A DNA stretch of 64,000 bases from Pseudoselenomonas ruminantium. Lineage in GTDB: Bacteria > Bacillota > Negativicutes > Selenomonadales > Selenomonadaceae. The DNA is taken from the NCBI RefSeq assembly GCF_900113715.1, contig NZ_FOQK01000001.1, positions 1 through 64,000 of the forward strand. Reading direction: 5' to 3'. This document shows positions 26,224 to 41,662 of this stretch, piece by piece (the first letter of the stretch is position 1; every line of letters starts with the position of its first letter). The notes beneath the pieces are model-generated. The model saw nothing but the letters and a program-made list of their open reading frames with translations. It was not told the origin of the DNA and made no database searches. Both the position numbers and the translations under genes were made by a program.

Positions 26224-27855
26224 TCAGAGTCTCACGACTTGCTGGACGCGGGCTGCGGCCAGCGGATCGTGGGTAATGATGAGCAGCGTCCGCTGCTTTT
26301 CATCGAGTTCGTCAAGAACAGCGGTGAGAAGGGCGGACGCTGTTTTTTCGTCGAGCCCTGCGGTCGGTTCGTCAAGGAGCAGGATGGGGGCAGGGCGGGC
26401 GATGGCCAGCGCTGTCAGCAGCCGGTTGCGCTCACCACCCGAGAGATTTCCTGCACTGCTGGTGAGCGGGCTGTCGAGTCCTGCTGGCAGCTTTCCGATG
26501 ACGGCGGCTAGCTGGGCAACCTGCAGGCTGTGCCAGATCGCTTCGTCGCTGATGCCGGGGATGAGCCGCAGAAAGAGGGAGCGGATGCTGCCGGCAGGAA
26601 GATCGCAGCCTTGCAGGGGGGCGGAGAAATATTCTCGCTGCTGGGCAGGGGACAGGCTGGTGCTATCCTGCCCCTGCAGGCGGATGGTACCGGCAGGAAC
26701 TGGCCAGCAGGCCGTGAGCAGGCAGCCAAGCGTGGTCTTGCCACTGCCGCTGTCCCCGAGGATGGCAGTATGTGCTCCTGCTGTCACCGTAAAGGAAATG
26801 TCGTGCAGGATCGGCATTTGCTCGTGGTAGCCAAAGGTCAGATGGCTGACGGCAAGCAGTGGCGCCGTGGCAAGCGGGGAAGAGGCCGCAGATGCGGGGG
26901 GAGGGCAGGTGGCGGCAACGGGGACGGAAAAGAGCGGCGCTGCTGCCTGCTGGCTCTCCTGGAAGGCGCGGGCGGCTGCTGCCAGCGGCTGGAACTCGCT
27001 CTGCAGGGCCAATAGGAGAAAGAGCCAGACCGTAAGCTCGATGAAGGTCTGTGTCCCGGAAAGGGCGGCAGAGGTCAGGCTGGCGAGGAGCAGGATGAGG
27101 ACGAGTGCATCAAGGACTTGCAGCAGGAGGTCGCTGTATAGTGTCTGGTGCTGGCCTTGCTGCTGCTCCTGACGCAGCTGGCGGGCAAGTGCTGCCAGGC
27201 GAGATTGTACGGCTGGCAGACTGCCAGCCACCAGCAGTTCCGCCTGGCCTGAGGCGGCATCCAGGAGCGCACTGCGATAGGCGGCCTTGGCTTGGCCGCC
27301 AGCTGCGCCATGGGGTGTTTCCAGCAGACAGGGCAGGAGCAGATGGGAAAGCCAGAGCAGCGGCAGCAGCAGGCTGACTGTGCCGATGGTGCCGAAGAGC
27401 ACAAAGGAGGTCAGCAGGCTGAGCAGCAGGCTGGCAATGGGCGGCAGCAGCGCACGCAGGTAGAACTCACGCAGAGTCTGGCAGCTGCTGGTCAGCTGAT
27501 GCAGCCATAGTCCCTGGGATGCCATTCCCGTGCGCAGGGGCAGGGTGGCGGCTGCCTGGTCGTAGAGCTTCAATTGCAGCTGGGTATGGCTGTGGAAGGC
27601 TAGCTGATGGGAGAACCAGCGGTCTGCGTAGCGGAAGACTGCGCGGCCGATGCCGCAGGTGCGGACGATGGTGATGCCGAGAGCCAGCTCAGCCAGTGGC
27701 GGCTGCAGTGCGGCCGAGGTTATGAGCCAGGCGGCTGCTCCCATAAGGCCGAGCGCACAGATGGCCGCGGTCAGGGAGGCGGTTGCGGCAGCCGCCAGCT
27801 GGCCGGGGGCTGCCAGCCGCAGCAGAGGGCAGAATAGCTGGTAAACGGATTTCAT
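26224..27855 (-). CDS. cydC: Thiol reductant ABC exporter subunit CydC
   Basis: 543 residues: six membrane helices then an ABC ATPase. Walker A is GDSGSGKTT, the signature LSGGERNR, Walker B ILLLDEPT, and the H-loop ITHDP. CydC pairs with CydD to export cysteine or glutathione (and bind heme), needed for cytochrome bd assembly. The start overlaps the cydD stop by four bases, so translation is coupled. It is the last gene of the cyd cluster. Confidence 0.9.
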   Translation of the reverse strand: MKSVYQLFCPLLRLAAPGQLAAAATASLTAAICALGLMGAAAWLITSAALQPPLAELALGITIVRTCGIGRAVFRYADRWFSHQLAFHSHTQLQLKLYDQAAATLPLRTGMASQGLWLHQLTSSCQTLREFYLRALLPPIASLLLSLLTSFVLFGTIGTVSLLLPLLWLSHLLLPCLLETPHGAAGGQAKAAYRSALLDAASGQAELLVAGSLPAVQSRLAALARQLRQEQQQGQHQTLYSDLLLQVLDALVLILLLASLTSAALSGTQTFIELTVWLFLLLALQSEFQPLAAAARAFQESQQAAAPLFSVPVAATCPPPASAASSPLATAPLLAVSHLTFGYHEQMPILHDISFTVTAGAHTAILGDSGSGKTTLGCLLTACWPVPAGTIRLQGQDSTSLSPAQQREYFSAPLQGCDLPAGSIRSLFLRLIPGISDEAIWHSLQVAQLAAVIGKLPAGLDSPLTSSAGNLSGGERNRLLTALAIARPAPILLLDEPTAGLDEKTASALLTAVLDELDEKQRTLLIITHDPLAAARVQQVVRL

Positions 27856-29495
27856 GGGCGATCGGCTCCTTCCGTAGGATAGGGGGCAAGGTGGATGATC
27901 TTATCGGCTATGGCCTGGATGGCGGGATGATGGGAGATGATGACGAGGGTGCGCCGGTGGGCAAAGGCGGTCAAGGCGCGGATGATTTGCTGCTCCAAGG
28001 CTTCGTCCATGCCGGCGGTGGGCTCGTCGAGCAGGGTGACCGGGCGGTTCTGCAAGAGGGCACGGGCAAGGCCTAGGCGTTTGCGTTCGCCCTGGGAAAG
28101 GGGCAGGCCGTTGCCGCCGAGTTTAGTATCAAGCCCTGCAGGCAGCCTGTGCAGAAGGCCGTCAAGGGAGGCGAGACGCAGGGCCTGGCGGATGCGTTCA
28201 GCTGGTACCTCTTGGAAAAGGCTGACGTTCTCTTGCAGGCTCGCAGCGTAGAGATGCGGCTGCTGCGGGACATAGGCGATGAGTTTTTGCCGGCTGGCAG
28301 CCGCCATGGTCGCCAGGGGCTGGTCGTTCAGCAAGACCAGCCCTTGGTCGGGCGGCAGCAGGCCAGCCAGGAGCTTCAGCAGGGTGGATTTGCCGCAGCC
28401 GCTGGGGCCTGTGATGACGGAAATCTTATGGGCGGGGAATGTTTCCTGCTGCAGGCCGAGGAGGATGTCCTTGGTGCCCGGATAACGGTAGCGGATGTCT
28501 TGCAGATGGATGGCTGGCGGCAGCTGCAATTGTTCATGATGGCCATCAGCCGCAGCTGGCTGGGGGGCGAGGACAAAGGCCTGCAGTTTTTGCCAGGCGG
28601 TCAGGGATTCGATGGCGGCATGGAAGATGATGCCGCCTTGCCGCAGGGGCTGGTAGAATTCTGGGGCCAGAAGCAGGAGCAGGAGCGCCGTGCGGAAGGC
28701 GAGGGCATTGTCCAGCAGCCGCAAGCCGGTGCTTACGGCGACGATGGCAATCGACAGGGTCGTGATGAGCTCCAGGGCAAAGGAACTGGCGAAAGCCAGC
28801 TTGAGTACCTGCAGGGAGGTCTGCGCAAAGCCCTGGCTGAGCGTTCGGAGATCCTGACGCTGTGCTTGTTCTTGGGCGAAAAGCTTCCAGGTCATCATGC
28901 TGCGCAGCATGTCGTCGAAGCCGGCATTGAGCTGCTGGAGACGATGCCATTCCCGGCTGCTGGCGGTTTTGGTGGCCTGGCCTATCAGATAGAGCAGGAA
29001 GGGGGCAATCGGCAGGGTAAGGGCGAAGAGCAAGGCGGTCAGCGGATCGGCTGCAAGGGCAGCGGTGAGGATGACCGGTGTGCGGAACAAGAGTGCACTG
29101 GTCACTGGCAGTGCCTTGCTGAGCAGGTGGTCGAGCCTATCGACGGTTTCGGTAGCCTGCAGTGACAAGGCTGCCGGTGATGCGGACGTATGGGGAACGT
29201 GCTGGTGCAGACGCAGGCGGCACGTCTCGCGCCAGCTGGCGGACAGGCGGATGATGATGCGGCGCTGCTGGAAGCTTGCCAGCAGCTGCAGGCAGAGCAT
29301 AAGAAACAGCGCCAGCAATACTGGCGCTGCAGCAGGAAAGCCCGTGAATGCATGCTGATAGACATTGGCAACCAGCCCGGAGAATTGCCAGGCGATTGCC
29401 AGCAGCAGCAGGCTGTGCAGGAGTTCCAGGCCGGCAAGAGCGAGCAAGGAAGTCTTATAGGTGGTGATGATTTCTTTGCAAAGTTGTTTGGTCAT
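27852..29495 (-). CDS. cydD: Thiol reductant ABC exporter subunit CydD
   Basis: 547 residues: membrane domain then ABC ATPase with Walker A GPSGCGKST, signature LSQGERKR, Walker B VTLLDEPT and H-loop ISHHP. It is the heterodimer partner of CydC in the inner membrane. GTGAGG precedes the ATG. The 31-base gap to cydB holds TGACCGGTCA (29512-29521), a 10-base palindrome that is also the core of the uvrC promoter dyad. Order A-B-D-C matches the Bacillus cydABCD-type unit. Confidence 0.9.
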   Translation of the reverse strand: MTKQLCKEIITTYKTSLLALAGLELLHSLLLLAIAWQFSGLVANVYQHAFTGFPAAAPVLLALFLMLCLQLLASFQQRRIIIRLSASWRETCRLRLHQHVPHTSASPAALSLQATETVDRLDHLLSKALPVTSALLFRTPVILTAALAADPLTALLFALTLPIAPFLLYLIGQATKTASSREWHRLQQLNAGFDDMLRSMMTWKLFAQEQAQRQDLRTLSQGFAQTSLQVLKLAFASSFALELITTLSIAIVAVSTGLRLLDNALAFRTALLLLLLAPEFYQPLRQGGIIFHAAIESLTAWQKLQAFVLAPQPAAADGHHEQLQLPPAIHLQDIRYRYPGTKDILLGLQQETFPAHKISVITGPSGCGKSTLLKLLAGLLPPDQGLVLLNDQPLATMAAASRQKLIAYVPQQPHLYAASLQENVSLFQEVPAERIRQALRLASLDGLLHRLPAGLDTKLGGNGLPLSQGERKRLGLARALLQNRPVTLLDEPTAGMDEALEQQIIRALTAFAHRRTLVIISHHPAIQAIADKIIHLAPYPTEGADRP

Positions 29496-29526
29496 GATTC
29501 CTCACTGTTCTTGACCGGTCAGTTAC

Positions 29527-30543
29527 TCAATGGGTGTCATTGCAATCGTTGGGGGAAATGCGCTGGCGGAAGATCCAGTAGGTCCAGCCTTGATAGATCA
29601 GGACGACAGGAACCAGGCAGGCCGCTGCGATTGTCATGATGGAGAGTGTGTAGTGGGTAGAGGCGGCATTGACGATGGTCAGCGACCAGGCAGGATCGAG
29701 ACTGGATACCATGAGCCGCGGGAACAGTCCGGCAAAGAAGCCGACGGTAGTGGCGGCGATGGCCAGCGAGCTCAGTACGAAGGCCAGGCGGGAATGCCCT
29801 TGGAACAGGCGCAGGTACCCCACGATGAATGCGGCACCAGCGGCCAGGAGACACAGTCCGCCTAGAGCGCTCTGGAAGAGATCGGTGTTGAGGAAGGTCA
29901 GCAGCAGGCAGAAGACAAAGGCGATGATAGCCAGAGCTCCAGCCTTGGCTGCGAGTGTCCTGGCCCGTAGGGTGAGTCCGTGGCTGGCCAGCCGTTGGGT
30001 CAGGAAGGCGGCCCCGTGGAAGGTGAAGACAAAGAAGAAGGTCAGTCCGCCGATGATGGTATAGGGGGTCAGCAGGTCAAAGAAGCCTCCCAGATAGATC
30101 ATTTTCTCGTTGATGGGCAGCCCCTGGATGAGGTTCGTGACGGCAACACCCCATAAGAAGGCGGGGACAGCACTGCCGAAGCAGATCGCCCCCTCCCAGA
30201 AATGGCGCCAGCACGGCGACTCATGACGGCCGCGCAGCTCGAAGGCCACGCCGCGCAGGATGAGGGCGACGAGCATCAGGAACAGGGCGAGGTAGAAAGT
30301 CGAAAACATCGTAGCGTAGACGTGGGGGAAAGCAGCGAACAGCGCACCGCCAGCAGTAATCATCCAGACTTCGTTGCCATCCCAGACTGGGGCAATCGTG
30401 CGCAGTACCTGTGAGCGCTCGCTGTCGTGCGGGCTCATGAAGGGCAGCAGTATGCCGACGCCGTAATCAAAGCCTTCGAGCAGGAAAAAGCCTGTGAACA
30501 GGACGACGATGAGCACAAACCAGATCAGATTGAGTTCCATCAT
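29527..30543 (-). CDS. cydB: Cytochrome bd ubiquinol oxidase subunit II
   Basis: 338 residues, usual length, about nine membrane helices. It opens LIWFVLIVVLFTGFFLLEGFDYGVG and has the WDGNEVW segment, both characteristic of CydB. It structurally supports CydA and may form the proton/oxygen path. It overlaps cydA by four bases. The C-terminus is short and charged. Confidence 0.95.
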   Translation of the reverse strand: MMELNLIWFVLIVVLFTGFFLLEGFDYGVGILLPFMSPHDSERSQVLRTIAPVWDGNEVWMITAGGALFAAFPHVYATMFSTFYLALFLMLVALILRGVAFELRGRHESPCWRHFWEGAICFGSAVPAFLWGVAVTNLIQGLPINEKMIYLGGFFDLLTPYTIIGGLTFFFVFTFHGAAFLTQRLASHGLTLRARTLAAKAGALAIIAFVFCLLLTFLNTDLFQSALGGLCLLAAGAAFIVGYLRLFQGHSRLAFVLSSLAIAATTVGFFAGLFPRLMVSSLDPAWSLTIVNAASTHYTLSIMTIAAACLVPVVLIYQGWTYWIFRQRISPNDCNDTH

Positions 30544-31907
30544 GAATCCCTCCCTTCAACAGGAATCGAAGTCGTGCGGATATGGCGCAGAGCGATGTAG
30601 AGAGCGGCGATGGCCAGCAGCAGGTAGAGGGCCGTAAAGCCGATCATGGTCAGCCAGACTGAACCGGCAGTGAGATTGGGCGAAACCGCATCGGCTGTCT
30701 TCTGCAGGCCAACGACAATCCAGGGCTGACGGCCGGCTTCTGCGATGAACCAGCCAGCCGAATTGGCAAGGAAGGGCAGTGGCAGCAGGAAGGGCAGGGC
30801 CTTGAGCAGAAGCGGGAAGGCCATGACGCGATCCATCTTCGCCAGCAGTGCGATGGCGAAGGCCAGCATCAGCATGAAGCCGCCAGCTGCCACCATGATG
30901 CGGAAGCTCCAGAACAAGGCCGGCACGTCTGGGCGATAATCACCGGGGCCGTACTTTGCCTGGTATTCTTTCTGCAGGGCGTTGATTCCCTTGACCTCTC
31001 CTTCGGGCTTATTGTAGAGCATGAAGGAAAAGACGCCGGGCACAGCCAGCTCGCAGTCGTTGCGGTTCTTCTCCATGTTGATGTCGGCCATGATGGCAAA
31101 AGGTGCCGGATCTTCGGTTTCCCAGAGGGCCTCCATCGAGGAAAGCTTCATGGGATTGGCCTCAGCAAGATACTGCGTGTGCATATGGCCGCTGCCCATG
31201 ACTCCGAGGAGCCCGATGGCCATGTAGATGGCGCCGGCCTTGAGCGTCTGGGTAAACGCATAGCGTGAAGCCTCGTCGTGGAGAACTTTCCAGGCAGAAA
31301 TAGCCAGTACGACAAAGCCGCCTGTCGAGATACCGGCAAATAATGCATGTGAATATTCGCCGAGGACATAGTGATTGGTAAGCAGGGCGAAGAAATCGGT
31401 CATGACGGCACGCCCGTTTTCAATGGCATAGCCGACTGGATGCTGCATGAAGCTGTTGGCGACGAGGATCCAGAATGCCGAGATATTGCTGCCGATGGCG
31501 ACAAGCCAGATGCAGGCGCAGTGGAGTTTCTCAGACAGCTTATCCCAGCCGAAGACCCAGATGCCGAGGAAGGTCGACTCAAGGAAGAACGCCGTGAGTG
31601 CCTCAAGGGCCAACGGCGCGCCGAAGATGTCGCCCATGAAGCGCGAGTACTCGGACCAGTTCATGCCGAAGTGGAATTCCTGCACGATGCCAGTGACGAC
31701 GCCCATGGAAAAATTGATCAGGAAGATCGTGCCGAAGAAGCGTACCAGCTTACGGCAGGTTTCCTTCCAGGCCGGGCGCTTGGTGCGCACATAGCACGTC
31801 TCGAGCAGGGCGACGAAGATCGACAAGCCCAATGTTATCGGGACGAACAGGAAGTGATACGTTGTCGTGATGGCGAACTGCCATCGGGATAAGAGCAAGG
31901 CTTCCAT
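30540..31907 (-). CDS. cydA: Cytochrome bd ubiquinol oxidase subunit I
   Basis: About 455 residues. The N-terminus WQFAITTTYHFLFVPITLGL has the heme-ligand histidine, EYSHALFAGISTGG carries another, and AGRQPWIVVG is the conserved signature near the C-terminal half. The Q-loop is short, as in Firmicute-type enzymes. The oxidase reduces oxygen with quinol at high affinity; in an anaerobe it probably removes oxygen and supports microaerobic respiration. ATG at 31907 has AGGAGG seven bases upstream, preferred to 31949. Confidence 0.95.
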   Translation of the reverse strand: MEALLLSRWQFAITTTYHFLFVPITLGLSIFVALLETCYVRTKRPAWKETCRKLVRFFGTIFLINFSMGVVTGIVQEFHFGMNWSEYSRFMGDIFGAPLALEALTAFFLESTFLGIWVFGWDKLSEKLHCACIWLVAIGSNISAFWILVANSFMQHPVGYAIENGRAVMTDFFALLTNHYVLGEYSHALFAGISTGGFVVLAISAWKVLHDEASRYAFTQTLKAGAIYMAIGLLGVMGSGHMHTQYLAEANPMKLSSMEALWETEDPAPFAIMADINMEKNRNDCELAVPGVFSFMLYNKPEGEVKGINALQKEYQAKYGPGDYRPDVPALFWSFRIMVAAGGFMLMLAFAIALLAKMDRVMAFPLLLKALPFLLPLPFLANSAGWFIAEAGRQPWIVVGLQKTADAVSPNLTAGSVWLTMIGFTALYLLLAIAALYIALRHIRTTSIPVEGRDS

Positions 31908-31953
31908 ATGATTCCCTCCTTTGCTATATAGATGCAGACATAAATTCACCTTT

Positions 31954-31982
31954 ATTATAAATCAGAAAATTAAGAATTACAA
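31954..31982 (-). promoter_or_regulatory. cydABDC promoter
   Basis: On the minus strand TTGTAA (31977-31982) and TATAAT (31954-31959) are 17 bases apart, about 47 bases before cydA. It overlaps the T run of the preceding terminator. Confidence 0.75.
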
Positions 31983-32019
31983 TAAAATAAAAACACCGCT
32001 TCCGTTTGCGAAAGCGGTG
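31981..32019 (-). terminator. Intrinsic terminator after the P-type ATPase homologue
   Basis: Arms CACCGCTT (31994-32001) and AAGCGGTG (32012-32019); on the minus strand a T-rich run follows. It separates the gene from cydA, so the two have different transcripts unless read-through occurs. Confidence 0.85.
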
Positions 32020-32029
32020 CTGGCGACAA

Positions 32030-33247
32030 TCAAGCGCGCAGTGAATTGAGCAGGATGAGGATAGCGGCAAGGAGCTGTCCGGCAGCTGCGCAGAAGGGAG
32101 GCAGGAAGGGCCCGCCAAAGACGTGCAGCAGACCCAGGGCTGGCGGCAGCAGCAGGAGCCAGGCAATGGCGGCAAGGATGCGATTGGCCTTGACGATGCT
32201 CATGGTACTGCGGCTGATGGTAAGCAATGACGAAAAATCCCAGAGCTTGCCGCTTTTGAGGACGATGGAAAAAGCGGGCGGTGCCTGCGGGGCGTCCGCC
32301 GAGACGGGAGTTTCGGGCAGCGCGCCAACGTGGATGCTGAGATCGGCAGCAGCCATGGCGGGCATATCCGTAGCCGGATTGCCTGCCATGGCCAGCGTTG
32401 CACCATGGGCACGCAGCAGCTGGATCTCGCGGACCTTGTCCTGGGGGGAGAGGTTCGCATGGGCTTCATCGATAGCAGCCTGTTTGCGGACTGCGTTGGC
32501 TGTGCGGCGGCTGTCACTGGTCAGCATGACAAGTTTCAGCCGCTGGCGGTGGAATTTGTGGAAGGCCGTGATGTTGTCCTGCGGGATCTCGTCGGCCATG
32601 GCGATGATGCCACGGCAGTATTTATCGTTGGCGACGAATACAGTTGTCTGTCCGCGCTGGGATAGCTGGTCGGCCTTGGTCAGCAGGTTGGCACTGATCT
32701 CGATGCCTTCTTCCTGCAGCCATTCGCCTCTGCCGACCCGCAGCGGTGAGCGGTTGATCAGGGCCTCTACGCCGTAGCCGGGGAATTCGTTGGCGGCCGA
32801 CAAACGCTGGAGATGCAGCCGGCGTTCGATAGCGGTCTGGTAGATGGCCTGGTAAAGTGGCTGGCTGGAATCGCGTACAGCCGAAGCGGCGAGCGCGAGC
32901 AAGGCGCCTTGGCTGATGCCCTCCGGAACGAGCGCGGCGACATAGGGATGGCCTTCTGTGACGATGCCGCCCTTGGCGACGGCAAGCGTATCGATTTTTG
33001 CCGTCTCGGCAATCACCGCCGGACTGGCAAGATCGATGTCCTCCTTTGCGGCCCGTTTCGCACCGCGGGCAAGGGCGACGGGGCGCGAGAGCCAGAGCGG
33101 TATGGGCAGGCCAGCCAGCAGGATGGCAGCAAAGATATTGATGGTTTCGGGGAGCGGCAGTCCGGTGGAATACCAATAGCCGCTCATTCCGGCAGCGAGC
33201 AATACGGCCAGGACGGTGAAATAACGGATGTTTGCTTGTTTTTTCAT
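32030..33247 (-). CDS. Truncated, catalytically degenerate P1B-type ATPase homologue
   Basis: 405 residues. Order: two membrane helices (about 8-27 and 36-53), a P/N-domain region, and two C-terminal helices (about 359-402). This matches the last four helices of heavy-metal ATPases; the metal-binding N-terminus, first helices and A domain are absent. The phosphorylation motif DKTGTLT reads AKGGIVT at 91-97 (Asp to Ala), the CPC site reads PIPL, TGD reads TSD, the HP motif reads QP, and GDGIND reads GNPATD. ATP-driven transport is therefore very unlikely. The frame is intact and a GAGGTC ribosome site is present, so it is probably expressed. It lies directly upstream of cydABDC. A role in metal or heme supply to the oxidase is a guess. 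Confidence 0.8.
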   Translation of the reverse strand: MKKQANIRYFTVLAVLLAAGMSGYWYSTGLPLPETINIFAAILLAGLPIPLWLSRPVALARGAKRAAKEDIDLASPAVIAETAKIDTLAVAKGGIVTEGHPYVAALVPEGISQGALLALAASAVRDSSQPLYQAIYQTAIERRLHLQRLSAANEFPGYGVEALINRSPLRVGRGEWLQEEGIEISANLLTKADQLSQRGQTTVFVANDKYCRGIIAMADEIPQDNITAFHKFHRQRLKLVMLTSDSRRTANAVRKQAAIDEAHANLSPQDKVREIQLLRAHGATLAMAGNPATDMPAMAAADLSIHVGALPETPVSADAPQAPPAFSIVLKSGKLWDFSSLLTISRSTMSIVKANRILAAIAWLLLLPPALGLLHVFGGPFLPPFCAAAGQLLAAILILLNSLRA

Positions 33248-33391
33248 GCGTATGACCTCATTTTCTCAGTTTTCTGATTCTTATTATCCTGCAAAAAGCA
33301 GAAATGTGCAATAGATTAGGGGGAAACACTTGAACCCGTGGGGAATTATTGCTATCCTTATAAAGAAAAGTATGCGAAAGGACGTGGTTTC

Positions 33392-34252
33392 GTGATTAAA
33401 GTGGAGGGCAATGCCAAGATAAATCTCACCTTGGACATTCTGGGCAAGCGTCCCGACGGCTATCATGAAGTGGCGATGGTCATGCAGTCAATCGGCCTCA
33501 GTGATACAGTGGAAATGGAGAAGACGGATGGGCCCATCGAGCTGACGATCAATGTGCCATGGCTCAAGGCCGATGAGAAGAATCTGGCCTGGCGGGCAGC
33601 GGCATTGATCAAGGAAGAATACAAGCTGGCGGGTGGCGTGCGTATGAAGCTCACCAAGCGCATCCCGGTGGCTGCGGGCCTGGCAGGTGGCAGTACCGAT
33701 GCTGCTGCCGTGCTGCGCGGCATGAAGGAGCTCTATGCGCTGGATATTTCGGAGGAAAGACTTTGCGAGCTGGGCTCTCAGCTGGGCTCGGATATTCCCT
33801 TCTGCCTGCTTGGCGGTACGATGCTGTCGACGGGGCGCGGTGAAGTGCTCAAGCGGCTGCCGGATCTGCCAGCAACGTGGGTCGTGCTGGCGAAGCCGCG
33901 TATCTCGGTCTCGACGGCCTGGGCTTATCAGAATTATGATGCACAGGGAGCAAAGGAGCATCCGGATAATGAGAGAATCCAGCAGGAAATTGCCCGCGGC
34001 GACCGAAAAGCTGTGGCCGGATTATTGTGCAATGTGCTCGAAAGTGTTACTATTAAAAAGTATGATGTGATTTCCCAGTACAAGCAGATGATGATGCAGC
34101 AGGGCGCCATGGCCAGCATGATGTCTGGCAGCGGGCCGACCGTTTTCGGCTTGGCAGAGAGCAAGGAGACGGCTGACAGGATTGCTACGCATATGCGCGA
34201 GCATACCGATGCCTATGTCTATGTCATCCGCACGACGGGGAAGGTACAGTAA
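33392..34252 (+). CDS. ispE: 4-diphosphocytidyl-2-C-methyl-D-erythritol kinase
   Basis: About 286 residues of the GHMP kinase family. N-terminal VEGNAKINLTLDILGKRPDGYHE and the ATP loop PVAAGLAGGSTDAAAVL are typical of IspE; the C-terminal SGSGPTVFGL motif completes the fold. It phosphorylates CDP-methylerythritol in the MEP isoprenoid pathway. GTG at 33392 has AAAGGA upstream; an ATG at 33338 would give a non-homologous extension. It is followed after 42 bases by the GntR regulator. Confidence 0.93.
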   Translation: MIKVEGNAKINLTLDILGKRPDGYHEVAMVMQSIGLSDTVEMEKTDGPIELTINVPWLKADEKNLAWRAAALIKEEYKLAGGVRMKLTKRIPVAAGLAGGSTDAAAVLRGMKELYALDISEERLCELGSQLGSDIPFCLLGGTMLSTGRGEVLKRLPDLPATWVVLAKPRISVSTAWAYQNYDAQGAKEHPDNERIQQEIARGDRKAVAGLLCNVLESVTIKKYDVISQYKQMMMQQGAMASMMSGSGPTVFGLAESKETADRIATHMREHTDAYVYVIRTTGKVQ

Positions 34253-37642: not shown

Positions 37643-38323
37643 TTGGAAATGAATTCGAGTGTTACAGACTTGTTCATCCAGCACTTTGATTTTTGGCCGC
37701 ATCTGTCGGAAGCGGAGAAGGATCTGATCAGTGCACATACCAATATTGTCCGCTATGCGAAAGGGACGCAGGTCCATCAAGGGCCTTTGGATTGTATCGG
37801 TGTCCTGCTCATCAAGAGCGGGCAGCTGCGTGTCTACACGATGTCTGAGGATGGCCGTGAGGTCACGCTCTACCGCCTGTTCCCTGATGATGTCGGCATC
37901 CTGTCGGCGGCCTGTGCCCTGGATGCCGTGACCTTTGATGTCTATATCGATGCCGAGGAGGATACGGAGGTGCTGTTGACGGATGCCGTGGCCTTCCGCA
38001 AGCTGGCAGACACCAATGTGTATGTGCGCTGCTTTGGCTACGAGAAGGCATCGAACCGCTTGTCAGAGATGCTCTGGAAGATGCAGCAGGTCCTGTTCCT
38101 GTCCGCCGACCGGCGGCTAGCCATTTTCCTGCTCGAAGAGAGTGAGAAGCTGGGCGGCGATGAGATCCATATGACCCATGAACAGATTGCCCGCTTCATG
38201 GGGACGGCCCGCGAGGTGGTGAGCCGGCTGGTCAAGTATTTCAGCCAGGAGGGCTGGGTGAAGACGGCCCGTGGCTGCATCCGTCTGACGAACCGTGAGG
38301 CTCTGCGCGATTTGGCTGGCTGA
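37643..38323 (+). CDS. Crp/Fnr family transcriptional regulator
   Basis: 226 residues. A cyclic-nucleotide-binding-like beta-roll (GVLLIKSGQLRVYTMSEDGREVTLYRL) is joined by a long helix to a C-terminal HTH (MTHEQIARFMGTAREVVSRLVKYF). The N-terminus lacks the cysteine cluster of true FNR, so it is not an Fe-S oxygen sensor by that design; PRODORIC-type or other ligand control is possible. TTG at 37643 has GGGAGG seven bases before; the ATG at 37649 is the alternative. It might act on the FNR-like site before the nap operon. Confidence 0.85.
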   Translation: MEMNSSVTDLFIQHFDFWPHLSEAEKDLISAHTNIVRYAKGTQVHQGPLDCIGVLLIKSGQLRVYTMSEDGREVTLYRLFPDDVGILSAACALDAVTFDVYIDAEEDTEVLLTDAVAFRKLADTNVYVRCFGYEKASNRLSEMLWKMQQVLFLSADRRLAIFLLEESEKLGGDEIHMTHEQIARFMGTAREVVSRLVKYFSQEGWVKTARGCIRLTNREALRDLAG

Positions 38324-38340
38324 GCAAAATAGCAGGAAAT

Positions 38341-38384
38341 ACGCTGAGAGATGGCGAAAAAAGTCATTATCTCAGCGTTTTTTA
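38341..38384 (+). terminator. Intrinsic terminator after the Crp/Fnr gene
   Basis: ACGCTGAGA (38341-38349) pairs with TCTCAGCGT (38370-38378), followed by a T run. A TATAAT at 38397-38402 just beyond it probably serves the next operon. Confidence 0.8.
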
Positions 38385-38456
38385 GTGTATGTATTGTATA
38401 ATGAGGGCGTTTTGTTGATGGCAGGCAGAGAGCCTGAGCCAGAAAGGGGAAAGAAT

Positions 38457-39731
38457 ATGGGACTGATCAAAGCAGCTGCTGGCGCTGTAGGTGGCGTATT
38501 AGCAGATCAATGGAAAGAATTCTTCTACTGTGACAGCCTGACGGCAGATGTCCTGGCAGCAAAGGGACAGAAGCGTACGAGCGCCAGGAGCTCGAATACG
38601 AGCGGTGAGGATAACATCATTTCCAATGGCTCGACCATCGCTGTCAATGACGGGCAGTGCATGCTCATCGTCGAGCAGGGCAAGGTTGTCGATATCTGTG
38701 CCGAGCCGGGCGAGTATGTCTATGACAAGTCAACGGAACCTTCGATATTCGGCGGCAACCTGCGCGAGGATATCCAGGCAGTCTTTGAACGCATTGGCCA
38801 TCGTTTCACCTATGGCGGCGACACGGGGAAAGACCAGCGCGTCTACTATATCAATACGAAGGAAATCATGGGCAACAAATACGGTACGCCGAGTCCCATT
38901 CCCTTCCGTGTCGTCGACCAGAACATCGGACTGGATGTGGATATTTCCATCCGCTGCTTTGGCGAATACAGCTATCGGTTGACCAATCCAATCCTGTTCT
39001 ATACGAATGTCTGCGGCAATGTGGAGGAAAGCTATGATCGTAGTGCGATCGACAGCCAGCTCAAGACGGAGCTCATGACGGCATTGCAGCCGGCCTTTGC
39101 CAAGATTTCAGCAATGGGGATCCGTTACAGCGCTTTGCCGGGACATACGCAGGAGATCGCTGATGCCCTCAATGAGGTGTTGAGCCAGAAATGGGGACAA
39201 CTGCGCGGCATCGATGTCGTGTCGTTCGGTGTCAGCAACGTCAGCGCCAGTGAGGAGGATCAGCAGCTCATCAAGGAAATCCAGCGCAATGCGGCCTTCC
39301 GCAACCCGACGATGGCGGCTGCTCACCTTGTGGGCGCTCAGGCCGAGGCGATGCAGGCTGCGGCGGCCAATGAAGGCGGCATGGGAGCGGCCTTGGGCTT
39401 CATGGGCATGAATATGGCTGGCCAGGCTGGCGGCATGAACGCTGGCAATCTCTACGCGATGGGACAGCAGCAGGGGGCGCAGGCACCTGCTGCGGCAGCC
39501 GGCAGCTGGACCTGTGAATGCGGGACAGTCAATGAGGGCAAGTTCTGCTCGGACTGTGGCAAGGCGAAACCAGCAGCGGCAGCTTGGACGTGCAGCTGCG
39601 GGCATGCTGGCAATACGGGCAAATTCTGCTCCGAGTGTGGCAAGCCAAGGCCGGCAGGTCCCTGGACCTGTGGATGCGGCGCGGTGAATGAAGGCAGATT
39701 CTGTTCGGAGTGCGGCAAGCCGCGTCCATAA
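38457..39731 (+). CDS. SPFH domain protein with three C-terminal zinc ribbons (YdjI-like)
   Basis: About 424 residues. The N-terminal part (GLIKAAAGAVGGVLADQWKE) and central SPFH/band-7-like region match the YdjI or virion-core-like family. A Gln/Ala/Met-rich linker leads to three tandem ribbons from about residue 350, each of form WTCxCG...KFCSxCGK. It heads a module with a zinc-ribbon membrane protein and a TPM protein, as in Bacillus ydjG-ydjH-ydjI, which is linked to PspA-type envelope stress; no pspA is present here. A scaffold role at the membrane is inferred. ATG at 38457 follows AAAGGGGA. Confidence 0.78.
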   Translation: MGLIKAAAGAVGGVLADQWKEFFYCDSLTADVLAAKGQKRTSARSSNTSGEDNIISNGSTIAVNDGQCMLIVEQGKVVDICAEPGEYVYDKSTEPSIFGGNLREDIQAVFERIGHRFTYGGDTGKDQRVYYINTKEIMGNKYGTPSPIPFRVVDQNIGLDVDISIRCFGEYSYRLTNPILFYTNVCGNVEESYDRSAIDSQLKTELMTALQPAFAKISAMGIRYSALPGHTQEIADALNEVLSQKWGQLRGIDVVSFGVSNVSASEEDQQLIKEIQRNAAFRNPTMAAAHLVGAQAEAMQAAAANEGGMGAALGFMGMNMAGQAGGMNAGNLYAMGQQQGAQAPAAAAGSWTCECGTVNEGKFCSDCGKAKPAAAAWTCSCGHAGNTGKFCSECGKPRPAGPWTCGCGAVNEGRFCSECGKPRP

Positions 39732-39745
39732 AAGGAGGGAGATTG

Positions 39746-40849
39746 ATGGCGGAGACCTCTGTGAATTACAAGTGTCCGAATTGCAGTGCACCATTGGTCT
39801 TCCAGCCTGGCAAGGACAAGGTAAGCTGTGAATACTGCGGCAATGAATTTGCTGTGTCGGCCATCGAGGAGCTGTTCCAGAAGGAACAGGAACGTGCCGC
39901 CAGGGCGGCTGAGGCGCAGGAAGCCAAATGGGCGACGGAGCAGGCGGGAGGCCAGTGGGCAGAGGAAGAGGCTGCGGTCCTGCGCGTCTGTACTTGTCCT
40001 TCCTGTGGTGCCGAGCTTGTCTGCGATGGCAATACGATGGCGACTGAGTGCGTGTATTGTGGCAATCCGACCATGATACCGCGGAACTTTGATGGTATGC
40101 TCAAACCGGACTATGTCATTCCGTTCAAGAAGACAAAAGAGGAGGCAATGGCAGCTCTTAGGGAATTCTACAAAGGCAAGCTGCTGCTGCCGGCTGAGTT
40201 TAAGACCCAGAACCGCATTGAGGCAATACAGCCGATGTATGTACCATTTTGGCTGTTTGATTCAGCTGTGAAGGCGCATGCCGGATTCCAGGCGACGCGG
40301 GTACGTGTCTATGAGACTTCGGATGAGCGCGTTACAGAGACTTCGTATTACGACTGCGAGCGCAGCGGGACGATGGCTTTCGCCCGGATTCCCGTCGATG
40401 GCAGCGAGAAGATGGATGACAGCTACATGGAGAGCATCGAACCCTTTGATTATACGGAGATGGTACCGTTCAGCTCCGCGTTCCTGACGGGGTTCCTCGC
40501 GGATAAGTACGATGTGGATGCCCAGGCGTCTGGCCCGCGGGCGGATAAGCGGGTGGAACACAGTGCTGTCGGGGTGCTCGAAGAAAGTGTCACAGGCTAT
40601 GATACCGTAGCGTGCCAATCCTCAGCTGTCATCAAGGAGGGGGGCGAGGTGGCTTATGCCATGGCACCTGTCTGGATCTTGACGACACGTTATAAGGGCA
40701 CGCCGTATACGTTCATGATGAATGGACAGACTGGCAAGGTCGTTGGCAGCCTGCCCAGTGACAAGCGCAAGGAAGTCCTGTATCCGGCGGCGGTCTTTTT
40801 GCTGGTGCTGCCGATGCTTTACTATCTGGCGAAATGGATTTTTGCGTGA
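39746..40849 (+). CDS. TFIIB-type zinc-ribbon membrane protein (YdjG-like)
   Basis: About 367 residues. Two N-terminal zinc ribbons (KCPNCSAPL...CEYCGN and CPSCGAEL...CVYCGN) flank a charged coiled segment. A beta-rich domain follows, and one membrane helix lies near the C-terminus (AAVFLLVLPMLYYLAKWIFA). AAGGAGGGAG precedes the ATG. It lies 14 bases after the SPFH gene. Family knowledge places YdjG with YdjH and YdjI as a membrane complex; its biochemical role is not known. Confidence 0.75.
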   Translation: MAETSVNYKCPNCSAPLVFQPGKDKVSCEYCGNEFAVSAIEELFQKEQERAARAAEAQEAKWATEQAGGQWAEEEAAVLRVCTCPSCGAELVCDGNTMATECVYCGNPTMIPRNFDGMLKPDYVIPFKKTKEEAMAALREFYKGKLLLPAEFKTQNRIEAIQPMYVPFWLFDSAVKAHAGFQATRVRVYETSDERVTETSYYDCERSGTMAFARIPVDGSEKMDDSYMESIEPFDYTEMVPFSSAFLTGFLADKYDVDAQASGPRADKRVEHSAVGVLEESVTGYDTVACQSSAVIKEGGEVAYAMAPVWILTTRYKGTPYTFMMNGQTGKVVGSLPSDKRKEVLYPAAVFLLVLPMLYYLAKWIFA

Positions 40850-40861
40850 GGAGGAGAAGCG

Positions 40862-41662
40862 ATGAGGAAAAAAATCTTTATGATGCTGTCGGTTCTCGTC
40901 CTGACGGTCCTGCTGCCGGCGACGGTTTTGGCAGCAGCCAGCAACCTGACCGTGCCGCAGCATGCGGGAAGCCCGGTGTCCAGCGTGGTAGACCAGGCGA
41001 AGCTGCTCAGTGACAAGCAGCGGCAACAGCTCAGTGCGCAGATCGAACAGGTGGAGCGCAACCACGGCGTCAGGATTGCGGTGGTGACGCTGCAATCCCT
41101 GCAGGGGAAGGAGCCAGGACAGGCAGCTGATGCCATCCTTGACCGTGATTATGCGGATGGTGCGCATGGCAGCATGGTCTTGTTGCTGGCGATGGATACA
41201 AGGGACTGGTATGTGTCGACGGATAACTCGATGCGCAAGCGTATCACCGATGATGGTGGCTTTGCCTATCTTTCTGATGCGTTCCTGCCGTCTCTCAAGG
41301 ACGGCGATTATGCTGGGGCTTTCCGCCAGTATGTGGCGACAGCCGATGCTATGCTGGATTATTATGAAGAACAGGGCGAGCCATACGATCCAGCAAGTGA
41401 ATTCAGTTTATTAGCGTTTATCGTGGCCGTTGTTTTGGCGGGACTCGCGGCCATTGGTGTCTGGCAAATTCTGCTCTGCCAGCTTAATAACGTGACGCGC
41501 GCTGTCGCCGCAGATTCGTATCTGCAGCGCGATAGTGTGGCGCTTACTGAACAGAGCGACACGTATCTTTATACCGATGTTACGCGTACGCCGAAAGCTA
41601 AAAGCAGCAGCGGCAGCAGCAGTTCAGGTGGAAGCCACGGTGGTGGTGGCGGCAAGTTCTGA
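40862..41662 (+). CDS. TPM domain protein (YgcG/YdjH-like), secreted and membrane-anchored
   Basis: 266 residues. An N-terminal signal or anchor (KIFMMLSVLVLTVLLPATVLA) precedes a TPM domain (VVDQAKLLSDKQRQQLSAQI, HGVRIAVVTLQ, YADGAHGSMVLLLAM). A membrane helix near residues 180-205 and a Ser/Gly-rich tail ending GGSHGGGGGKF follow, as in YgcG proteins. TPM domains include acid phosphatases and chaperone-like proteins. As third gene of the module it likely interacts with the two upstream products. Confidence 0.78.
   Translation: MRKKIFMMLSVLVLTVLLPATVLAAASNLTVPQHAGSPVSSVVDQAKLLSDKQRQQLSAQIEQVERNHGVRIAVVTLQSLQGKEPGQAADAILDRDYADGAHGSMVLLLAMDTRDWYVSTDNSMRKRITDDGGFAYLSDAFLPSLKDGDYAGAFRQYVATADAMLDYYEEQGEPYDPASEFSLLAFIVAVVLAGLAAIGVWQILLCQLNNVTRAVAADSYLQRDSVALTEQSDTYLYTDVTRTPKAKSSSGSSSSGGSHGGGGGKF

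Follow-up and report, generated by a model that had tools for sequence, protein, structure and literature searches.

A gene lying between ispE and cydABDC in Pseudoselenomonas ruminantium, here called the pseudo-pump, probably encodes a membrane-anchored pseudoenzyme whose nucleotide-binding (N) domain, inherited from a CopA-type copper pump, serves as a ligand sensor or partner scaffold. The gene is located in a 64,000-nucleotide stretch at the start of contig NZ_FOQK01000001.1, which was analysed as a whole and is referred to below as the window. Coordinates of the gene, its domains and its surroundings are collected in Table 1.

Table 1. Features of the pseudo-pump locus and coordinates in the window
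Feature	Position	Strand	Remarks
Pseudo-P1B-ATPase gene, 405 aa	32030..33247	-	intact ORF, homology, orthologues
Counterparts of M3 and M4, with LPI in the CPC position and Pro48 retained	33047..33247	-	residues 1-67
AKGGIVT replacing DKTGTIT, phosphorylated Asp lost	32957..32977	-	residues 91-97
N (nucleotide-binding) domain, most constrained part	32606..32917	-	residues 111-214, borders set by the authors from homology
M5 and M6 equivalents	32033..32242	-	residues 336-405
Promoter-like hexamers TGCACA-16-GATAAT before the pseudo-pump	33283..33310	-	9 of 12; 2 sites found, 1.0 expected by shuffling
Terminator-like stem-loop after the pseudo-pump, 13 pairs	31992..32021	-	2 such sites found, 1.4 expected by shuffling
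cydA promoter-like site TTGTAA-17-TATAAT	31954..31982	-	nearly unchanged in inspected genus relatives
cydABDC, downstream neighbour	26224..31949	-	
ispE, divergent neighbour, shared-locus anchor	33338..34252	+	

Homology of the window protein and loss of catalytic motifs

The product of the gene corresponds to the M3-to-M6 span of a P1B ATPase of the CopA type, including the P and N domains. The heavy-metal P-type ATPase model TIGR01525 matched it with an E value of 3e-57 over model positions 171 to 559 of 560, at a score (194.7 bits) that did not reach the curated cut-off of 346 bits. The Pfam HAD hydrolase model matched residues 94 to 302 (57 bits), while the E1-E2_ATPase model could be placed only by its last part (positions 119 to 180 of 181), below its cut-off, on residues 7 to 68. 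The closest solved structures were the copper ATPases 3rfu and 3j08, of which 3rfu matched residues 12 to 404 (E 6e-44). No TGE-type A domain aligned to the window protein in the family alignment. These matches bear out the initial annotation, which had described a P/N fold with the last four helices and a missing A domain. Its claim of an intact frame likewise held, with a GAGGT ribosome site ahead of the ATG, an open reading frame of 405 aa and the terminator-like stem of 13 pairs after the stop.

The fold was assigned by homology, which places two helices at the N terminus and two at the C terminus. A hydropathy scan of the window protein returned one N-terminal segment (residues 35 to 53), a doubtful one (103 to 121) and overlapping ones over residues 349 to 400. 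Among the 81 short forms of the family, the same scan gave two helices within the first 100 residues in 57 and two C-terminal helices in 52. An AF2 model of the window protein, computed from three sequences (together with L039 and part of L040), had a pLDDT of 39, too low to inform the fold. The window protein and the host genome's own CopA share 31% identity. Three further P1B ATPases scored above the family cut-off in this genome, with intact DKTGT, TGD, GDGIND and TGES/SGES motifs, and the cell thus has working pumps besides the pseudo-pump.

In the window protein, DKTGT reads AKGGI (residues 91 to 95), TGD reads TSD, HP reads QP and GDGIND reads GNPATD. All four changes had been recognised in the initial annotation, which had also given PIPL as the replacement of CPC; the alignment instead puts LPI at this position, with the proline retained as P48. 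Proteins without DKTGT, referred to here as dead, accounted for 102 of the 108 matches to the window protein at an E value of 1e-50. Their Asp column contained P (24), S (19), G (19), N (17), A (16), T (4), C (1), R (1) and D (1), the sole D being that of L079, which reads DRSGT. CPC was present in none of the 102 dead proteins, and the second Gly of GxG was kept in all of them. The loss of HP, correctly noted for the window protein, is atypical of the family, where the His was kept in 87 of 102; the Glu preceding it was retained in 76 of the 81 short forms, and the window's subclade is without both residues. As the Asp, the Cys pair of CPC and the A domain are missing, neither a phospho-intermediate nor metal pumping should be expected of the window protein on the basis of known P-type ATPase chemistry. 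The pseudo-pump descends from P1B ATPases and fails their catalytic tests, which speaks against classifying it as a metal transporter.

Distribution in the genus and family

Of the 22 genus genomes, 20 carry a dead copy. The orthologues are similar in length, one having an in-frame stop and one being cut by a contig end. Across the family, 108 of 151 genomes matched the window protein at E 1e-50, and the loci of all 108 were fetched. The initial annotation had regarded an intact DKTGT in close relatives as a sign of decay; DKTGT was present in none of the 20 genus copies and in 6 of the 108 family copies, so that intact relatives occurred only outside the genus. A profile search added 13 further dead proteins, and the dead gene occurs in at least 115 of 151 family genomes and in 22 of 30 genera sampled. 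The sets contained no copy, dead or active, from 30 family genomes. Eight of these 30 were inspected by profile search, which found no short frame; 115 of 151 is therefore a minimum, and the 22 genomes that have cydA without the dead gene are a maximum. Many of the family genomes are incomplete drafts.

The profile search found only frames of at least 662 aa in genera g11 and g22, and only frames of at least 652 aa in two genomes each of g8 and g13; the short gene was absent in all of these. In some other genera the pseudo-pump has been relocated yet retained. A scan of genome contigs yielded one orthologue (L039, from Selenomonas ruminantium SIG241, probably identical to the record L010/L052) and one active ATPase (L040), and the viral contigs searched contained no relative of the pseudo-pump.

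Phylogeny and probable stepwise origin

The main tree comprised 61 rows, with the DKTGT columns removed and the short forms thinned at 60% identity. It omitted the long-branch rows L104, L110 and L157, as well as L089, near copies and L191 to L195, and took four of the eight g21 rows. Every dead protein fell on one side of a single branch in this tree (100/100), the main-group short forms clustered as a single clade (99/99), and the dead clade was adjoined by active CopA-like members of the family. In a quick tree of 113 rows (L088 omitted), the dead group received an SH-aLRT value of 86, with a long-branch warning. Outside the family, the seven proteins inspected for motifs among the best-scoring profile matches were all active. 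The active genes L071, L074 and L075 and many dead genes, both long and short, adjoin ispE-gntR-glmU-prs, and L074 and L075 also precede cydABDC. These three active proteins thus occupy the same ispE-side place as the dead genes, and L071 and L074 adjoin the dead clade; they differ in their length (738 to 762 aa) and in having intact TGES, CPC, DKTGT, TGD and GDGIND motifs.

An A domain scored above the Pfam cut-off in five of the ten long dead proteins scanned (L077, L078, L080, L090 and L125), in which DKTGT reads AKTGI, GKTGI or GKSGI. In the other five (L079, L083, L084, L085 and L087; 600 to 710 aa), the A domain was unrecognisable beyond its end, and among the scanned proteins only the first five can be called full-length. 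As a dead lineage with a recognisable A domain exists, the catalytic Asp was probably lost before the A domain. In a copper-pump gene of the Selenomonas family, the catalytic site seems to have been lost once, long ago, and the front half later. The g21 short dead forms grouped with the A-domain-bearing lineage (89/85), and the tree suggests that they probably underwent a separate loss of the N-terminal half.

The g21 short dead ATPases (L183 to L190) are 376 to 444 aa in length, lie near ispE and have another N terminus in place of the CPC helix. One g9 copy (L132) reaches 585 aa with a different C-terminal stretch, which may be an extension or a frame shift.

Constraint on the N domain and state of the ATP site

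The distribution of constraint over the domains is reversed between active and dead proteins. The N domain had the highest dN in all eight active P1B pairs. In dead pairs, its dN was below that of the transmembrane helices in 20 of 20 and below that of the P domain in 18 of 20 (a tie in L098/L113, reversed in L144/L145), where the 20 pairs share rows and give 13 sets without shared rows, and the domain borders were set by us. In the pair L051/L052 of the window clade, dN was 0.009 for the N domain, 0.034 for the P domain and 0.076 for the helices. Site entropy after filtering at 70% identity agreed, the N domain minus the other domains giving -0.39 in short forms, -0.53 in long dead proteins and +0.69 in active proteins. 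The entropy and residue analyses covered 81 short and 18 long dead proteins and omitted L056, L059 and L088, which are broken or cut. The lowest dN and entropy in the N domain mark it as the shared working part of the dead family.

Nine positions had a frequency of 1.00 in the 81 short forms (P48, L116, A121, G159, E161, G172, G213, E274 and D302). Four more were near-fixed in short forms yet rare in active pumps (E154, 99%; T190, 96%; R273, 96%; R212, 95%), and W176 was also present at 95 to 99% in the 81 short forms. The ATP-pocket residues, which we take to be the E, H, G and G named from CopA structures, were all present in 44 of the 81 short forms, in 16 of 18 long dead proteins and in 17 of 19 active proteins. 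Three of the four were present in 33 short forms, at least three in 77 of the 81, and two in the remaining four, among which is the window's clade. The window protein has V, Q, G and G at these positions, both Glu and His being lost. Separate subclades have lost different residues of the site, and because this loss was piecemeal, canonical ATP binding cannot be assumed for every member of the dead family.

The same comparison bears on the idea that the pseudo-pump is a regulatory subunit of a canonical P1B ATPase that it would tune through its own N domain, an idea we consider unlikely. The pseudo-pump does derive from such a pump in the 61-row tree, and all 10 genomes checked with TIGR01525, 9 of which carry the dead gene, have at least one P1B ATPase above the cut-off. 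However, P1B ATPases are common in bacteria (14 of 14 control genomes matched the family), and their presence says little. Furthermore, the helices and the P domain, where pairing might occur, are less constrained than the N domain.

Genomic neighborhood and the possible link to cytochrome bd

A position directly upstream of cydABDC had led the initial annotation to suggest a role in heme, copper or oxidase assembly or as a sensor. Among the 102 dead loci, cydA lies at most 0.7 kb downstream in 37. It was the commonest downstream neighbour in neighbour clustering (36 loci), which returned no constant partner besides ispE and cydA. The pairing of the gene with cydA persists away from ispE in 14 of 14 g9 loci and in 5 of 6 g3 loci, the latter five having gaps of 4 to 56 bases between the two genes. 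Presence of cydA was also associated with that of the dead gene (97 of 115 genomes with it and 22 of 36 without it; Fisher p 0.005, uncorrected for kinship). At most 22 of 151 family genomes have cydA without a detected dead gene, and 4 of these 22 have an active CopA-like copy.

Although these observations could be explained by an assembly factor or sensor for cytochrome bd, we regard such a factor as rather improbable. The predicted co-occurrence with cydAB stands above chance, kinship aside, but 18 of 115 gene-bearing genomes are without cydA; 9 of the 18, among them G019 of the same genus (99%), are at least 90% complete. In g11 (L167 and L168) and g22 (L169), cydA and ispE remain within about 1.2 kb of each other and the pseudo-pump is gone, another ORF lying between them in g11; the profile search also covered the g11 genome G076. 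For 50 dead loci, either cydA maps to another part of the genome or the contig stops close to the gene. Neither ispE nor cydA was present in the fetched stretches of 41 of 102 dead loci, 31 of which have at least 5 kb of upstream and 2 kb of downstream sequence. In the window, the gene and cydA are separated by the terminator-like stem and by a promoter-like site of cydA's own. A specific cytochrome bd role is therefore possible and not favoured, and the assembly role proposed initially loses ground through the 18 genomes without cydA and the loss of the gene beside cydA in g11 and g22.

Several further features of these loci were recorded. A T-run stem occurs at the same place in L052, L053, L055, L057, L058 and L070, with different stem letters (judged by eye), and the TTGTAA-17-TATAAT site of cydA is nearly constant in the same six loci. 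The listed GTG start of cydA (31949) is probably too early, as an ATG at 31907 stands behind a good ribosome site (GGAGGG). The ORF between ispE and cydA in L167 (4221 to 5072) looks ferredoxin-like by eye, with a CxxCxxCxxxCP motif. Elsewhere in the window (38295 to 41662), three adjacent ORFs were seen, two with Cys-rich stretches resembling zinc ribbons by eye and one resembling TPM-domain proteins (by eye, from the ORF list).

Readings as a transporter or pseudogene, and selection

It is very unlikely that the pseudo-pump is still a transporter, using other chemistry or allowing passive substrate movement. The helices are kept, as is the P-domain Lys in 86 of 102 dead proteins. However, an acidic residue is absent from the Asp position in 101 of 102, the helices count by site entropy among the parts of the dead family with the weakest conservation, and the A domain, which couples hydrolysis to movement, is gone in the window protein.

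Across 16 dead pairs, dN/dS ranged from 0.05 to 0.19. In pairs with comparable neighbours, the values for the pseudo-pump were mostly higher than those for cydA and no higher than those for cydD. The view that the gene was repurposed and is not decaying, already put forward in the initial annotation, agrees with this range, with the wide conservation of the gene and with its single clade, and repurposing over decay is well supported by sequence comparison. A decaying copA pseudogene is scarcely credible: all catalytic motifs have drifted and a stop or shift breaks three loci (L056, L088 and L099), but the three are all in draft assemblies, the L056 genome has glmU and cydA broken too, the gene persists in most sampled genera, and decay was rejected on the dN/dS values.

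Proposed function

The pseudo-pump has probably been recruited to a different task that involves no pumping. As a membrane-anchored N-domain pseudoenzyme, it would use its helices to tether the N domain to the inner side of the membrane. With the Asp and the A domain both missing, the phosphorylation cycle as known could not run, and the remaining tethered module would bind a nucleotide or nucleotide-like ligand or dock a partner protein. Binding by the N domain may in turn regulate or scaffold something in the envelope. For the family as a whole, nucleotide sensing is the first candidate, as nearly all short forms lack no more than one of the four ATP-site residues. The subclade of the window protein has lost two of the four, and there partner binding or an altered ligand is probable instead. 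Against a sensor of this kind, it must be counted that some genera do without the pseudo-pump gene.

More tentatively, a transporter may have become a receptor here, with a copper pump rebuilt stepwise into a membrane-anchored N-domain sensor of a nucleotide or partner in the Selenomonadaceae envelope. In the course of such rebuilding, the A domain would have been lost or eroded after the Asp, probably more than once.

Relation to known systems and implications

The window protein shares the order M3-M4, P, N, P, M5-M6 with CopA (Legionella pneumophila, 3rfu; Archaeoglobus fulgidus, 3j08 and 3a1c). It differs from CopA in being without the HMA domain, M1-M2, the A domain, the phosphorylated Asp and CPC, and in that constraint has shifted to the N domain. 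MJ0968 is a soluble P-type ATPase consisting of the P and N domains only, with the Asp and without an A domain. The window protein likewise combines the P and N domains and has no A domain but, unlike MJ0968, it is membrane-bound and has no Asp. Well-known examples of pseudoenzymes occur among kinases and phosphatases. As in pseudokinases and other pseudoenzymes, the catalytic residues of the pseudo-pump are lost while the fold and the binding part are kept, and the gene, intact and under purifying selection, fits the pseudoenzyme idea. A literature search of open-licence PMC papers found no pseudoenzyme family of pseudo-P-type ATPases; the matches were a paper on designed transporters (PMC12395301) and papers on unrelated topics.

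Genes of this kind match HAD hydrolase and P1B ATPase models and yet should not pump, which is a warning for annotation. The reversed domain constraint singles out the N domain, about 100 residues, as the working part. The Selenomonadaceae lineage offers intermediates of the transition, namely dead proteins with an A domain and short dead proteins, together with active relatives at the same locus.
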